Origin: Phycisphaerales bacterium
GTDB lineage: Bacteria > Planctomycetota > Phycisphaerae > Phycisphaerales > SM1A02
DNA length: 36,109 bases
Direction: 5' to 3'
Assembly (NCBI GenBank): GCA_013003065.1
Contig: JABDLI010000262.1
Coordinates: forward strand, 1 to 36,109
Below are positions 24,473 through 31,571 of this stretch, in pieces. Position 1 is the stretch's first letter. Each line of letters starts with the position of its first letter. The notes under the pieces were generated by a model, which saw only the letters and a program-made list of their open reading frames with translations, was not told where the DNA came from and ran no database searches. Made by a program: the position numbers and the translations under genes.

Positions 24473-24600
24473 CCCGCCAACGGCCGGTCCGGCCCCCCAC
24501 CGAACCGGAGACTTCTGCGGCTCGATCGTCGAAGGAATGGCCCATCCGCTATCCTGAAGGGTCTCACTCGTCGATTTCTTGTACCCCCGGAGGAGTAGAT

Positions 24601-26491
24601 GCGTACGACGACCCACCGCAATCCACATCCGAGCGCCCGCCTTCGTTGGAGCGGCATCCTGACGCTGCTCCTCGGTGCTACGCTCGTCATCACGTCAGGT
24701 GCCAACGCCCAGAACGTGGGCGGACCTCCACCGAGCTTTGACAGCGACCAATTGGCGTCCTGGCAGGAGTGGTTGGTTCCCGCGGTCGAGCGGATCGCCG
24801 GCCGCTCGTTCGCCAAGCCCCCCGTGGTGCGGGCGGCTTCCCAGTTCGATCTCGCCAGACGCCTCGAGGAGGCACCGGCGGAGACGGCGGGGCGGCGTCT
24901 GGCGGCGGGTCTTCTCGGCTGGTACGACCCCGTGAGCGACGTCGCATTCATCCGCGACGACGTCGACCAGATGTTCCGCGACGCGCGGGTCGATCCCGCC
25001 GCCCTGCCGCGGATCATGCAGCTCGCGCTCGCGCGGCAGCTGGCTCGCGCGCTCGCCGATCAGACCGTCGCCTCGACCCGCCGGGGAAACGAGCGCGATC
25101 GCCTGGCGATCGAGGAGGGCATGGCCACGATCGTTCACGAGCGGATCGCCCGGAGACGCGGCTGGACCGCGGCGTCCGCCGAGCTCGAGCGGCTGCTCTC
25201 GTTGCGAGGCGTTCCCGGCTCGCGGTATGCCCCCGCCCGATCACGGCACGCCGCGATCATCGCACCCGGGCAGACGCGTGTTCGCACGGCCCTGACCGAT
25301 GGAACCGGCCTCGCGGGGGTCTTCCCGCTCCTCGCCGATCCCCCGGCGGTCGCTGGCGTCGACCTCGCCACCGACACCTCCAGCTTGCCGCCGATCGACC
25401 CGGACGTTCTCTTCGACGGGTACGCCGATCTCTTCGGCAGCGCCTTCTCGTCGAACCAGATCATGTCCGCCGAGGGGAGCAAGCTCAATCAATCGCACCG
25501 ATTCCTCAAGGAGCTGTCCCAGGGGCGTTTCCAGGACAACGTCCGCGCGAGCCATACGCTCATGATGACGAATCGGACCGCCCAACCGCCGATCATCCGA
25601 TCCGCGGCGCTCTTCGATCTGTCCAACCCCGCGTTCGGCGCGAAGATCGTGCAGTACAACAGCATGATCAAGAACGTCCAGTTCGGCGACGTCAAGAAGG
25701 CCGCCGATGAACGCGGCGGTCGCATCGACGAATCGCTGGTGCGTTCGCTGCCGGGCCTCGATTGCGAACGCGTCCGTGCGTTCCGGCTTCGCGTGTGGGA
25801 GCCCAGCGCGGCCGAGGATGCGATGCCGGTGGTGTCGTTGGCGTTGGGCACCGCCTGGCGGGGCCGCTTCGTCGTGCAGGTCAACGGCGTCGGCGGGTAC
25901 TTGGACGACACGCGGTTCGGCCTTGTCATGAATGCGCTCCTCGACCGTGCCGAGGGAATCGAGACGGTGCCCATCGTCGATCCGGTGACGACGGCGTTGG
26001 AGCGGATGGGCTCGCAGCTCGCGGCCGGCATCGAGCCCCTCGCCGTCACGGAGGTGGATCCGGTCCGGGCCGGCGAGCTCGTCAGTGACGCCGGGCAGTT
26101 CGCGCTGGCGGCGGGGTTCGTCCGGGGGTGGCGGAGCGTGCGTCGCGCCGAAACGGCGGATGGCCTCATCGCGGTCACCGTGATCGAGCTCCTGCAGCCT
26201 GATCTCGCCGCAGCGTTGGCCGAACCATTGGCGGGCGCGGCGGCACGGCAGGTCAACGCATTGCTGGGATCGGCCGCCCCGGTGGAGGTGGGTCCGGCGA
26301 CGCGACGCATGATCGACGGATCGGTTCCCGTGGTCGCGCATCCGCTCAAGCTCGCCGCCGATCACTCGGCGCCGGCGGCGGGGTCACTCTACGTTTCCCA
26401 CCACGGCCGGTTGGCGGTGCGGGTCATCGATCTCGGCAACACGCTGGGGCCCGAAGCGGTGGACGCGTTCATCCGCGATGTCATGAAGTAA
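24601..26491 (+). CDS. Secreted hypothetical protein, possibly a degenerate metallopeptidase fold
   Basis: Signal peptide WSGILTLLLGATLVITSGANAQ; SD GGAGGAG; LALARQLARALADQ ... LAIEEGMATIVHERI resembles a gluzincin block without HExxH. Confidence 0.8.
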
Positions 26492-26513: not shown

Positions 26514-26673
26514 CTAGGTCCCGGCTCAGAATCCGTCGGAGCACGGTCATTCCCGCTCTGGACGGCGTCGCCGAAGCTCGCTGTATCGTTCAAATACGGC
26601 ATCGCTTCCCCCTCCTTGCCAGAACGGAAAGCACCGCACTCCGGCGAATCCTGAGCCGTCAAACAGGACCTAG
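26514..26673 (-). repeat. ~160-bp imperfect inverted repeat (MITE-like element or structured RNA) between convergent genes
   Basis: Ends CTAGGTCC / GGACCTAG. Arms 26522-26561 and 26619-26658 match at 31 of 40 positions when one is reverse-complemented. Inner stems are GAAGC/GCUUC and GCCGUAU/AUACAGC. Confidence 0.7.
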
Positions 26674-29600
26674 TGAAAGTCACGCGAGCGCGCCGGGAGG
26701 CGGGTGAGCTGCCGGTCGAGCGTCGCAAGACGCCGGACGTTCACGTGCACGACCATTCCCTGTCGCTCCACCCGCCCGTACGCGATCAGGGCAATCCCGT
26801 GCCGGGCGGCGTGCCGGAAGCGTTGGTAGATTTCCGGCCGGATGATCAGGTTCGCCACCGCGGTCTCGTCCTCGATCGTCATGAAGACGATCCCCTTCGC
26901 CGTGCTCGGACGCTGCCGCACCAGCACCAGACCCGCCACCGCCGTCCACGCCCCGTTCTTCCAGCGGGTCTCGTCGGCCAGGGTTTCCGCGGTCGTCACG
27001 CCGCGGCGATCCAGCTCCTCCCGCAGGAACGACACCGGATGCGCCCGCAACGACAGACGCGTCGCGGCGTAGTCGTGCGCGACCTTCTGGAACTCCGGAA
27101 CCGGCGGCAGCCGGGGCGGGCGTCGCGATTCCGGCGGTGACGGCGTGTCGTCGAACATCGGCAGCGGTTCGTCGGTCAGCGCCCTGATCGCCCACAACGC
27201 CGCCTGCCGCTCCAGCCCCAACGAGCGGAACGCATCGGCCCCCGCCAGACGCCGCAGCACGGACACCCGCACACCGCTCCGGCGATGCAGCCCCCGGGCG
27301 GAGTCGTAGGCGGCCCCGTTCCTCCGGGCATCGGCGATGGCCGTCGCGTCCTCTTCCCGCAGACCCTTGATGAGACGAAACCCCAGTCGCAACGCCGGCC
27401 CCGGGGTGTCCGCGGCGGATTCCAGATGACAGTCCCACCCGCTGTGGTTGACGTCGACGGGACGGACCTCCACCCCGTGCGTCTGCGCGTCCCGCACGAT
27501 CTGCGCCGGAGCGTAGAAGCCCATCGGCTGGCTGTTGAGGAGCGCCGCGGCAAAGGCGGCCGGATGGTGCCGCTTGATCCACGCCGAGACGTACACGAGG
27601 AGCGCAAAGCTCGCAGCGTGCGACTCGGGAAACCCGTACTCGCTGAAGCCCTTGATCTGCGCAAAGCAGCGTTCGGCGAAGTCACGCTCGTACCCGCGTT
27701 CGAGCATGCCGCTCACGAGCCGCGCGCCGAATCGCTCGATCTGGTTGCCCCGGCGTTTCCACGCCGCCATCGCCCGCCGGAGCTGGTCGGCTTCGCCGCC
27801 GGTGAACCCCGCTGCCACCATCGCGAGGGCCATCGCCTGTTCCTGGAAGAGCGGCACGCCGAGTGTCTTCTCCAGGACGGAGCGGACGGCGTCGCTCGGA
27901 TAACGCACGGGCTCCTCGCCGTTGCGGCGCCGGAGGTAGGGGTGCACCATGTCGCCCTGGATGGGGCCCGGCCGCACGATCGCGACCTCGATGACCAGGT
28001 CGTAGAAGCACCGGGGCCGGAGCCGCGGCAGCATCGACATCTGCGCGCGGGATTCGATCTGGAAGACGCCGATGGTGTCGGCCCGGCAGATCATGTCGTA
28101 GACCGCCGGATCTTCGGGGGGAATGGTGTGAAGCGCCGGCGGGGTCCGGGGGTCGGCCGCTTCCCGCGGATCGATCATCGCGAGCGCTTTGCGAATGCAC
28201 GTCAGCATGCCGAGACCGAGGACATCCACCTTGAGCATGCCCATCGCCTCGATGTCGTCCTTGTCCCACTCGATCACGGTGCGATCGGCCATGGCCGCGT
28301 TCTCGATGGGCACGAGATCGCAGAGCGGCGTCTCCGTGATGACGAACCCCCCCACGTGCTGTGAGAGATGCCGGGGAAAGCCGAGGATTTCCCGCGAGAG
28401 CCGGAGGAGCTGGTGGGTGAGCGGATCGTCGGGCGCGAGCCCCACGTCCCGCAGCCGCTCCGGATCTCCGACGCCGTCGTGCCACCAGTCGATGTTCTTC
28501 GCGAGCCGGTCGACGCAGTCGAGCGAAAGCCCGAGCGTCTTGCCCACGTCACGCACGGCGCTGCGGCCGCGGTAGCTGATGACCTCCGCCGTCAACGCCG
28601 CGCGGTCGCGACCGTACCGCCGGTAGATGTACTGAATGACCTCCTCACGACGCTCGTGCTCGAAATCGATGTCGATGTCGGGTGGCTCGTCCCGCTCCTT
28701 GCTGACGAACCGCTCGAAGAGCAGGTCGATCCGGCCGGGGTCGACCGCGGTCACGCCGAGGCAGTAACACACGGCGGAGTTCGCGGCCGCGCCGCGTCCC
28801 TGGCAGAGAATGCCGCGGCTGCGGGCAAAGACCACCAGGTCGTGGACGGTCAGGAAGTACGGGGCGTACTCGAGCTCCTCGATCAGCGTGAACTCGTGCT
28901 CGAGCTGGGTCCGGACCCGCGGCGGCACGCCACCGGGATACCGCTCCCGGACGCCCGCTTCGGTCAACGCACGCAGGTGCTCCATCGCGGTCCGCCCCGC
29001 CGGGCACACCTCACGCGGATACTGATACCGCAGCTCGTCCAGGCTGAACGCGGTCGCCCGCCGCACGATCGAGTCGATGCGGGTGACCGCCGCGGGGTGA
29101 TCGCGGAAGAGCCGTGTCATCTCCTCCGGCGTCTTCAGGTGACGCTCGGCGTGCGCGAGCAGCCGAAAGCCCGCGGTCGCCACCGTGCAGCCGTGCCGGA
29201 TGCAGGTGAGGACATCCTGGAGCGCCCGCCGCTCGGGCACGTGGTAGAGCACGTCGTTCGTTGCGACCAGCGGCACCGACGTCAGGTGCGCGATGGCCGC
29301 GAGCTGCCCGAGTCGGGCCCGGTCGTCGGGCCCGTAGAGACACGCGGCGGCGAGCGAGAGCCGATCGTCGTCGAAGATTCCGCGAAGCCCCCGCATGATC
29401 TCCAGGAAACGCTGATCGAGAACCGACGGAGGCACGACCACCGCCAGCAGATCCTCGTGGTGGTCGAGCAGGTCGTGCAGCGAAAGCGCGCACGCCCCCT
29501 TGACTGTCCGGCGTTTGCCCAGCGACAGCAACCGGCACAGACGGCCGTAGGACGCCCGGTTCGTCGCGTAGACGAGCACCGACAACGTCGTCCCGGTTCG

Positions 29601-29939
29601 GGCGTCGCCGGCATGCATCGCGTCGCGTCGCCCTTCCACCGTCATCTCCAGACGGCAACCGACGGCCAGGGGAATCCCGATCTCCTTGGCCGCCACGTGC
29701 GCACGAACGATGCCGGCGAGCGTGTTGCAATCGGTGATGGCGGCGGCCTGGTGTCCGAGGGCGGCCGCCTGCTCCACGATCTCCTCGGGATGACTTGCCC
29801 CGGTGAGAAACGTGAAGTTGGTCGTGGTATGGAGATCGGCGTAGCCGACGCGAGCGGCGGTGAACCGCGTCGTCGGTGCGAAGCCCACGCGTTTGTCACC
29901 GGGGTGTGGTCGCGATTTGGGGTTGGGAAGTTCCGGCAT
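26670..29939 (-). CDS. dnaE2: Error-prone DNA polymerase III alpha subunit
   Basis: PHP domain YADLHTTTNFTFLTGASHPEEIVEQAAALGHQAAAITD; DPGRIDLLFERFVSKERDEPPDIDIDFEHERREEVIQYIYRRYGRDRAALTAEVISYR; C-terminus ending SRDFH. Confidence 0.96.
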   Translation of the reverse strand: MPELPNPKSRPHPGDKRVGFAPTTRFTAARVGYADLHTTTNFTFLTGASHPEEIVEQAAALGHQAAAITDCNTLAGIVRAHVAAKEIGIPLAVGCRLEMTVEGRRDAMHAGDARTGTTLSVLVYATNRASYGRLCRLLSLGKRRTVKGACALSLHDLLDHHEDLLAVVVPPSVLDQRFLEIMRGLRGIFDDDRLSLAAACLYGPDDRARLGQLAAIAHLTSVPLVATNDVLYHVPERRALQDVLTCIRHGCTVATAGFRLLAHAERHLKTPEEMTRLFRDHPAAVTRIDSIVRRATAFSLDELRYQYPREVCPAGRTAMEHLRALTEAGVRERYPGGVPPRVRTQLEHEFTLIEELEYAPYFLTVHDLVVFARSRGILCQGRGAAANSAVCYCLGVTAVDPGRIDLLFERFVSKERDEPPDIDIDFEHERREEVIQYIYRRYGRDRAALTAEVISYRGRSAVRDVGKTLGLSLDCVDRLAKNIDWWHDGVGDPERLRDVGLAPDDPLTHQLLRLSREILGFPRHLSQHVGGFVITETPLCDLVPIENAAMADRTVIEWDKDDIEAMGMLKVDVLGLGMLTCIRKALAMIDPREAADPRTPPALHTIPPEDPAVYDMICRADTIGVFQIESRAQMSMLPRLRPRCFYDLVIEVAIVRPGPIQGDMVHPYLRRRNGEEPVRYPSDAVRSVLEKTLGVPLFQEQAMALAMVAAGFTGGEADQLRRAMAAWKRRGNQIERFGARLVSGMLERGYERDFAERCFAQIKGFSEYGFPESHAASFALLVYVSAWIKRHHPAAFAAALLNSQPMGFYAPAQIVRDAQTHGVEVRPVDVNHSGWDCHLESAADTPGPALRLGFRLIKGLREEDATAIADARRNGAAYDSARGLHRRSGVRVSVLRRLAGADAFRSLGLERQAALWAIRALTDEPLPMFDDTPSPPESRRPPRLPPVPEFQKVAHDYAATRLSLRAHPVSFLREELDRRGVTTAETLADETRWKNGAWTAVAGLVLVRQRPSTAKGIVFMTIEDETAVANLIIRPEIYQRFRHAARHGIALIAYGRVERQGMVVHVNVRRLATLDRQLTRLPARSRDFH

Positions 29940-29954
29940 CGTCGTCCGTTTACC

Positions 29955-31571
29955 TCACGCCCAACGCCCGTGGACGAACCAGCATCGGGTGCGATGCTCG
30001 TGGTAGATCCAGAGCCACTCCCCGCCGTCCACCTGGACCTTGAAGTAGTCACGGGCGGAAACCGCCGGGGTCGTCACCCCCCGCCACCATTCCGGCTCGA
30101 TGCGTTCGGGGCCGTGACTGCCGACGACCACGCGGTCCGAGCCCCGCCACCGCAGCCAGAGCGGCGGACCGTCCGGGGTGAGTGCCATCACGACGACGGG
30201 TTCCGGGGGCCGGAGGAGCTGGGAGGGACGCTCGACCGGGGTGACCGCACCGGCACCATTCGGCCGGGTCCTTCCGTCGACGCGGGCGAAGGCCCGTTCG
30301 GGCAGGTGCGACGCGACGGGCTTCGCACGCACCACCGCCTTCGGGCCGAGCCGGCTCGTCACGGTGTCGAGGAACTCCCCGAGCGGCTTCTCGTTCAACG
30401 CCGGCGTCGCATCGTTCTGCCACCGCGACATCTGCATGTGCGTGACCGACGCGATCGCAGGAACGGCGAGGGTCATCCGCTCGACGCCGAACCCCATCGG
30501 CATTCCCTCGATCCGGGGCGAGAGCATGGCCAGGAGATGACGGGGGGAGCGGCTGGGCCGGCTCAAGGCGAACTCGATCGTGTGCGGATCCAGATCGCTC
30601 CGGTCGCACGTGAGCGTCATCCGCATCACCCCCGCCCCGCGACGCTCGAGGACGGGGATCAATGCGGCGAGCAGATCCCGTGCGGTCTGCTGGAGCCCCT
30701 CCAGGTTGGACACCGGACCGTCGAAACACCGCGTCGCCTCGATCGGCTCGGTTGCACGCAGGGCGTCGATGGCTTCGGGAGCATCGCCCAACGCTTGATC
30801 GAGGCGGTGCAGCAACGCGGAACCGAAACGCGTGACAAGCTCATCGCGTTGAAGCTGAAGCAGGTGACCGATCGTCGTCACCCCCACCTCGAGGAGCGCC
30901 GCTTCCAACGCGGGATCGATCCGCAACGCGGCAACCGGAAGCGGTGTCAGCGTGATGCGTTCGTCTCCGGCGGCCACGATGGACCGCGGATCGACGCCGT
31001 ACCGTGCGACCGCCCACGCGCAGCCGAACGTCTCGGCCGTCGCCACCCGCGTCGTGAACCCCCGCCATTCGAGCGCGTTGCCGAGAAGGTTCAGCAGCCG
31101 CCGCTCTCCATGAAAGACACGCTCGCAGCCGGTGATGTCCAGCCACAGACCCGCGGGAGGATCGGACGCGACGAGGGGGGAGAACCGCTGCGCCCACACC
31201 GCCAATGCTCGCAACGCGCGATCGGAGCGTCGCTCGTCATCCGGCGCGACGATCGGCTCCGTCGCAAGCAACGCGCGGGCATGGGCCAGTGTCAACCCGG
31301 GGCGAACGCCGGCGGCGATCGCCTGTCCGCAGGCGTGTATCACCCGCTGGGCACCGGCGATGGTGCGGACGAGGAGCACGGGGGGAGGCGATGACGCGCA
31401 AGACGGGCCTGACGAACCAGACGGGGTTGGAAGAGCGGGCGTTGAAAGCTGCCCCGTCTCGACTTCACCCGGCTGCGACCGTTCGCACGCTGACGTCTGC
31501 CGGCGGTGACGCCGGCGTAAGAGCAGTTCCACCGGCCACATCGGCAGGTGCAGTGACAACGCCCTGGGCAT
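29955..31571 (-). CDS. imuB: ImuB-type Y-family polymerase-like protein
   Basis: MPRALSLHLPMWPVELL; GVRPGLTLAHARALL; LWLDITGCERVFHGERRLL; FTTRVATAETFGCAWAVARYG; operonic with dnaE2. Confidence 0.93.
   Translation of the reverse strand: MPRALSLHLPMWPVELLLRRRHRRQTSACERSQPGEVETGQLSTPALPTPSGSSGPSCASSPPPVLLVRTIAGAQRVIHACGQAIAAGVRPGLTLAHARALLATEPIVAPDDERRSDRALRALAVWAQRFSPLVASDPPAGLWLDITGCERVFHGERRLLNLLGNALEWRGFTTRVATAETFGCAWAVARYGVDPRSIVAAGDERITLTPLPVAALRIDPALEAALLEVGVTTIGHLLQLQRDELVTRFGSALLHRLDQALGDAPEAIDALRATEPIEATRCFDGPVSNLEGLQQTARDLLAALIPVLERRGAGVMRMTLTCDRSDLDPHTIEFALSRPSRSPRHLLAMLSPRIEGMPMGFGVERMTLAVPAIASVTHMQMSRWQNDATPALNEKPLGEFLDTVTSRLGPKAVVRAKPVASHLPERAFARVDGRTRPNGAGAVTPVERPSQLLRPPEPVVVMALTPDGPPLWLRWRGSDRVVVGSHGPERIEPEWWRGVTTPAVSARDYFKVQVDGGEWLWIYHEHRTRCWFVHGRWA

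Follow-up and report, generated by a model that had tools for sequence, protein, structure and literature searches.

The imperfect palindrome that closes dnaE2 in this Phycisphaerales genome is very probably a MITE, a palindromic and non-autonomous member of the IS5 family (NF033580 type), which would have been mobilised in trans and inserted at the CTAG that forms the native stop of the gene. The first-pass annotation had offered two readings, a MITE-like insertion and a structured 3' RNA of the SOS mutagenesis operon. The former agrees with what we found: a multicopy family with conserved terminal repeats, a TA duplication and matching IS5-family elements. The features of this locus, in coordinates of the window (the whole stretch of 36,109 nucleotides analysed), are as follows.

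24599-26491, plus strand: convergent 630-aa open reading frame of unknown family, ending about 22 bp before the element
26515-26516, no strand: left TA of the target-site duplication, within CTAG 26514-26517 (from end-base conservation over 62 ends)
26517-26670, minus strand: MITE body of 154 bp, that is, the 167-bp class (flanking CTAGs counted) less a 7-nt deletion; the AAGGAGG motif, as in the IS leader, reads on the minus strand
26517-26529, plus strand: terminal inverted repeat lacking TGTTTGA (GGTCC-CGGCTCAG)
26522-26561, plus strand: left palindrome arm
26611-26617, minus strand: AAGGAGG motif, Shine-Dalgarno-like, common to the IS left end and lying in an internal loop of the fold
26619-26658, plus strand: right palindrome arm, complementary to the left at 31 of 40 positions
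26651-26670, minus strand: intact terminal inverted repeat GGTCCTGTTTGACGGCTCAG
26671-26672, no strand: right TA of the target-site duplication, within CTAG 26670-26673 (from end-base conservation)
26670-29939, minus strand: dnaE2, error-prone polymerase, with its native end SRDFH-CAC-TAG, the CTAG being the target

The inverted repeat at 26514-26673 is real, and its geometry was recovered as the first-pass annotation had described it. Compared letter by letter, the 40-mer arms match at 31 positions, and the nine mismatches yield six G·U pairs on the minus strand against one on the plus strand. The outer ends CTAGGTCC/GGACCTAG are present, the 7-nt asymmetry corresponds to TGTTTGA/TCAAACA being absent from the left terminal repeat, and the dnaE2 stop TAG (26672-26670 read on the minus strand) lies inside the terminal CTAG. 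Both proposed inner stems, GAAGC/GCUUC and GCCGUAU/AUACAGC, appear in the predicted fold, whose energy was -97.4 kcal/mol on the minus strand (z -8.1) and -77.3 kcal/mol on the plus strand (z -5.7); on neither strand did any of 200 dinucleotide shuffles fold as stably.

The element belongs to a family. Its own genome (4.57 Mb in 385 contigs) holds one copy of 98% identity, one of 89% and further, more distant ones, and the end sequence CTAGGTCCTGTTTGACGGCTC matches it 18 times at up to three mismatches, while the reversed-pattern control gave none. Places with an element end or fragment number about 19 in this genome and about 20 in Bpl_8, the richest in copies among the hosts of our public-genome scan, which were Phycisphaerales (Planctomycetota). 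A DNA search of 41 genomes gave matches in only two others, and a strict end pattern occurred in 3 of 181 genomes of the family, a patchy distribution as expected for a mobile element. A looser end pattern occurred in 76 of 400 genomes of the order. Searches with paired end sequences recovered copies of 167-169 bp, a few of them shortened, from seven genomes of five genera (G000, which is the source genome, Bpl_8 or G020, G102, G107, G110, G150 and G194); no viral contig searched contained the terminal repeat. All these copies follow a common plan of a terminal repeat of about 20 bp, a long arm, an internal loop and an apical stem; the loop carries GGCAAGGAGG on one side (GCGAGGAGG in G150 and G194) and usually CGACG opposite, and the arms differ strongly in sequence between subfamilies with their complementarity kept. 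The copies are short, multicopy and free of conserved coding capacity. A small open reading frame (AAGGAGG and ATG to ...EPSNRT*) was considered and rejected, as its start codon varies between copies.

Several oddities were observed among these copies. The two that are 98% identical (window 26517-26529 and L009:2992-3008 on C100) bear different deletions in one place of the same terminal repeat, the former of 7 nt and the latter of 4 nt. A remnant of about 34 bp (L020:2965-2998 on C10 of the source genome) retains little beyond two terminal repeats back to back, and short remnants on C89 and C157 resemble it. In three further places (L170:1011-1344 in G107, L134:1042 and L065:3300-3337) elements abut end to end with one CTAG in common, which suggests that the element's own ends may be used as targets. 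Other palindromic mini-elements combine the same or similar terminal repeats with unrelated interiors (L139:2131-2256 in G344, L141:605-733 in G088, L066:3661-3889 and L081:1524-1656).

The target can be read from the ends themselves. Of 62 element ends, 51 retain the outermost C, 54 the T after it and 58 the A, and the two G that follow are retained in 60 and 62. Two copies sit at other words, GTAC (C26; GTA..TAC) and TTAA (L178 in G020; TTA..TAA), and both fit a TA duplication. Hence, the body begins at GG, and the TA inside CTAG is what is duplicated, present at both ends with a variable outer base. A 4-bp target duplication was also considered, and it is contradicted by the same two copies.

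A partner that could supply the transposase exists in related genomes. In OFTM74 (L085) we found a complete element of 979 bp that is bounded by CTAG on each side and has related terminal repeats; its two overlapping frames, orfA and orfB, score 120.5 and 171.1 bits against the NF033580 (IS5 family) model with its cut-off of 110 and contain the domains DUF4096 and DDE_Tnp_1; the partner thus codes for an IS5-family DDE transposase. G398 and G344 carry further copies of complete length, the terminal repeat of the former (TAGGTCCTGYCTGACGGCT) being the closest to that of the MITE. The MITE ends GGTCCTGTYTGAYGGCTC therefore recur, identical or closely related, as terminal inverted repeats of autonomous elements of about 980 bp, although the closest of these lie in genera other than that of the window's host. 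The complete elements (L085, L130 and L140) resemble the MITE in their identical or closely related terminal repeats, the flanking CTAGs and a leader motif GCAAGGAGG, and differ in encoding a transposase where the MITE encodes nothing conserved. Moreover, the MITE half with AAGGAGG is similar to the IS leader, at p 0.007, 0.010 and 0.017 in three subfamilies and at p 0.05 and 0.07 in two; in the opposite half, no homology to the IS could be detected outside the terminal repeat. The MITE would have arisen from the left end of the IS, through either an inverted duplication or an internal deletion. The source assembly itself yielded only a C-terminal fragment, which has 92% identity to that part of the IS and lies at the end of contig C54, as a collapsed or decayed repeat would, and no intact transposase N-terminus. 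Contigs of OFTM399 break about 140 bp inside an IS of the OFTM74 type. One locus of OFTM74 (L068:2255-2526) looks nested or chimeric, as the terminal repeat is followed by an apparent fragment of an IS630-type transposase (FIDETWAKTKMTR).

Why the element lies on a stop codon is explained by the rarity of its target. CTAG occurs three times in the window against 101 expected from composition, and two of the three are the element's own ends. Outside elements, 158.8 kb of loci from G000 and Bpl_8 contain nine, four at TAG stops, five intergenic and none inside called genes. Accordingly, in 18 of 32 copies (from G000, G020, G102, G107, G110 and G194) the terminal TAG is at the same time the stop of a gene called by codon usage, one of the 18 genes being weakly scored. 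This placement follows from the preference for CTAG together with its avoidance in these genomes. Relative to the CTAG background there is no significant enrichment (18/32 versus 4/9, p 0.21, with a small background sample). At dnaE2, ten homologues, all free of the element, end in SRDFH, SRDFR or ARNFH, with cac-tag in three and cgc-tag in one. Since the window gene ends in SRDFH-cac-tag, the insertion used the native stop and the DnaE2 protein is whole. At a second site, in genus g49 (L131), relatives without the element stop at or beside the same codon, the spacers being too diverged for the TA duplication to be read.

We propose that an IS5-family transposase of the partner type (DUF4096 and DDE_Tnp_1, from frameshifted orfA/orfB) would recognise the common terminal repeat and move the MITE in trans. 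Insertion at CTAG duplicates the central TA and, with CTAG almost confined to TAG stops and intergenic DNA, falls on gene ends, where the host gene stays intact because the duplication regenerates the stop; the native CAC-TAG of dnaE2 served as such a target. Any effect of the hairpin thereby added to the 3' untranslated RNA would be no more than generic, for example on mRNA stability or through cleavage by RNase III, and the element bears no specific relation to DNA repair. The case is a clean one of a rare word of the host and the target preference of an element together bringing a transposon onto stop codons at little cost to the genes.

Among published elements, MITEPsy1 of Pseudomonas syringae comes closest in kind: a short MITE of proposed IS5-family origin (ISPsy2) that targets CTAG or YTAA, but of 100 bp, with 18-nt repeats and a reported 4-nt duplication; the portion of its report drawn on here does not mention stop-codon placement (PMC3189936). 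Other palindromic repeats of similar size, for some of which effects at the RNA level have been reported, include Correia, ERIC and YPAL (PMC2229807, PMC10969869). The Correia/NEMIS elements of Neisseria are MITEs of about 105-155 bp with TA at their ends and an RNA hairpin, yet they have other ends and another host, and RNase III processing was demonstrated for them (PMC2229807, PMC2649163). ERIC and YPAL/RU-2 of enterobacteria are palindromic too (127 and 168 bp), and ERIC can likewise occupy 3' ends of genes; in contrast, their sequences are unrelated, and YPAL lacks TA termini (PMC2229807, PMC10969869). In the literature searched, outside which most subscription journals lie, we found no report of such an element in planctomycetes or of stop-codon placement mediated by CTAG.

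A further question is whether selection acts on the long hairpin itself, in the form of RNA or extruded DNA, during the mobile life of the MITE, for instance because it blocks read-through translation or aids transposition. We regard this as possible, though unlikely. Two clades keep pairing at 97% of cells with 17 and 12 pairs changed on both sides, and their doubly changed cells exceed every one of 500 shuffles, a test that the kinship of the sequences inflates. Changes shared between copies keep pairing in 34 cases and break it in 5, against 26 and 24 for private changes (p 0.0005), as expected if pairing is kept only during the mobile phase of a lineage. The AAGGAGG motif, too, is retained without a conserved start codon. 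Against selection, replication template switching between the arms can homogenise them and gives the same covariation pattern with no selection at all (PMC8604942, PMC8794818), and the subfamilies show no consistent excess of G·U over A·C; such a G·U excess, which would speak for RNA, is limited to the subfamilies of G000 and Bpl_8. Retained pairing could therefore be explained either by constraint on the mobile lineage or by arm-copying in replication, and the family offers a natural data set for telling these two processes apart behind covarying hairpins. A bolder version strikes us as rather improbable: the hairpin of about 167 bp, with AAGGAGG in its internal loop and its pairing kept by compensatory changes, would be selected in the mobile phase, so that a structured RNA or a cruciform would serve the spread of the MITE alongside its terminal repeats, with CTAG avoidance by the host steering it to stops.

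An intrinsic terminator serving the convergent genes is very unlikely: the element does lie between them and its hairpin is long and GC-rich, but neither strand has a U-tract after the hairpin, and the sole terminator-like match falls within an arm. The least credible reading, an RNA specific to dnaE2 and the SOS mutagenesis operon, could draw on the very stable minus-strand fold, the G·U strand bias in the subfamily of the window copy and the covariation among copies, but the same element follows many unrelated genes, in other genera too, its AAGGAGG strand is sense to the host gene in 7 cases and antisense in 11, an unbiased orientation that leaves this reading unsupported, the ten DnaE2 relatives lack it, and no Rfam family reached its gathering threshold (only MIR820 appeared, with 21.8 bits against 196). 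The first-pass annotation had held that a lack of homologous copies and covariation would speak against its proposal; such copies and covariation do exist, but they belong to a mobile element family. The MITE reading removes a tempting but wrong lead. The G·U bias is specific to lineage: mismatches that become G·U number 5-10 versus 1-4 on the two strands in copies of G000 and Bpl_8, whereas G102 and G110, subfamilies without this bias, have 0-1 versus 2-6. As a signature of RNA throughout the family the bias was thus ruled out, being confined to these first two, related subfamilies. Upstream of dnaE2, an ImuB-like Y-family gene with an IMS domain (29955-31571, minus strand) completes an ordinary mutagenesis-cassette layout.
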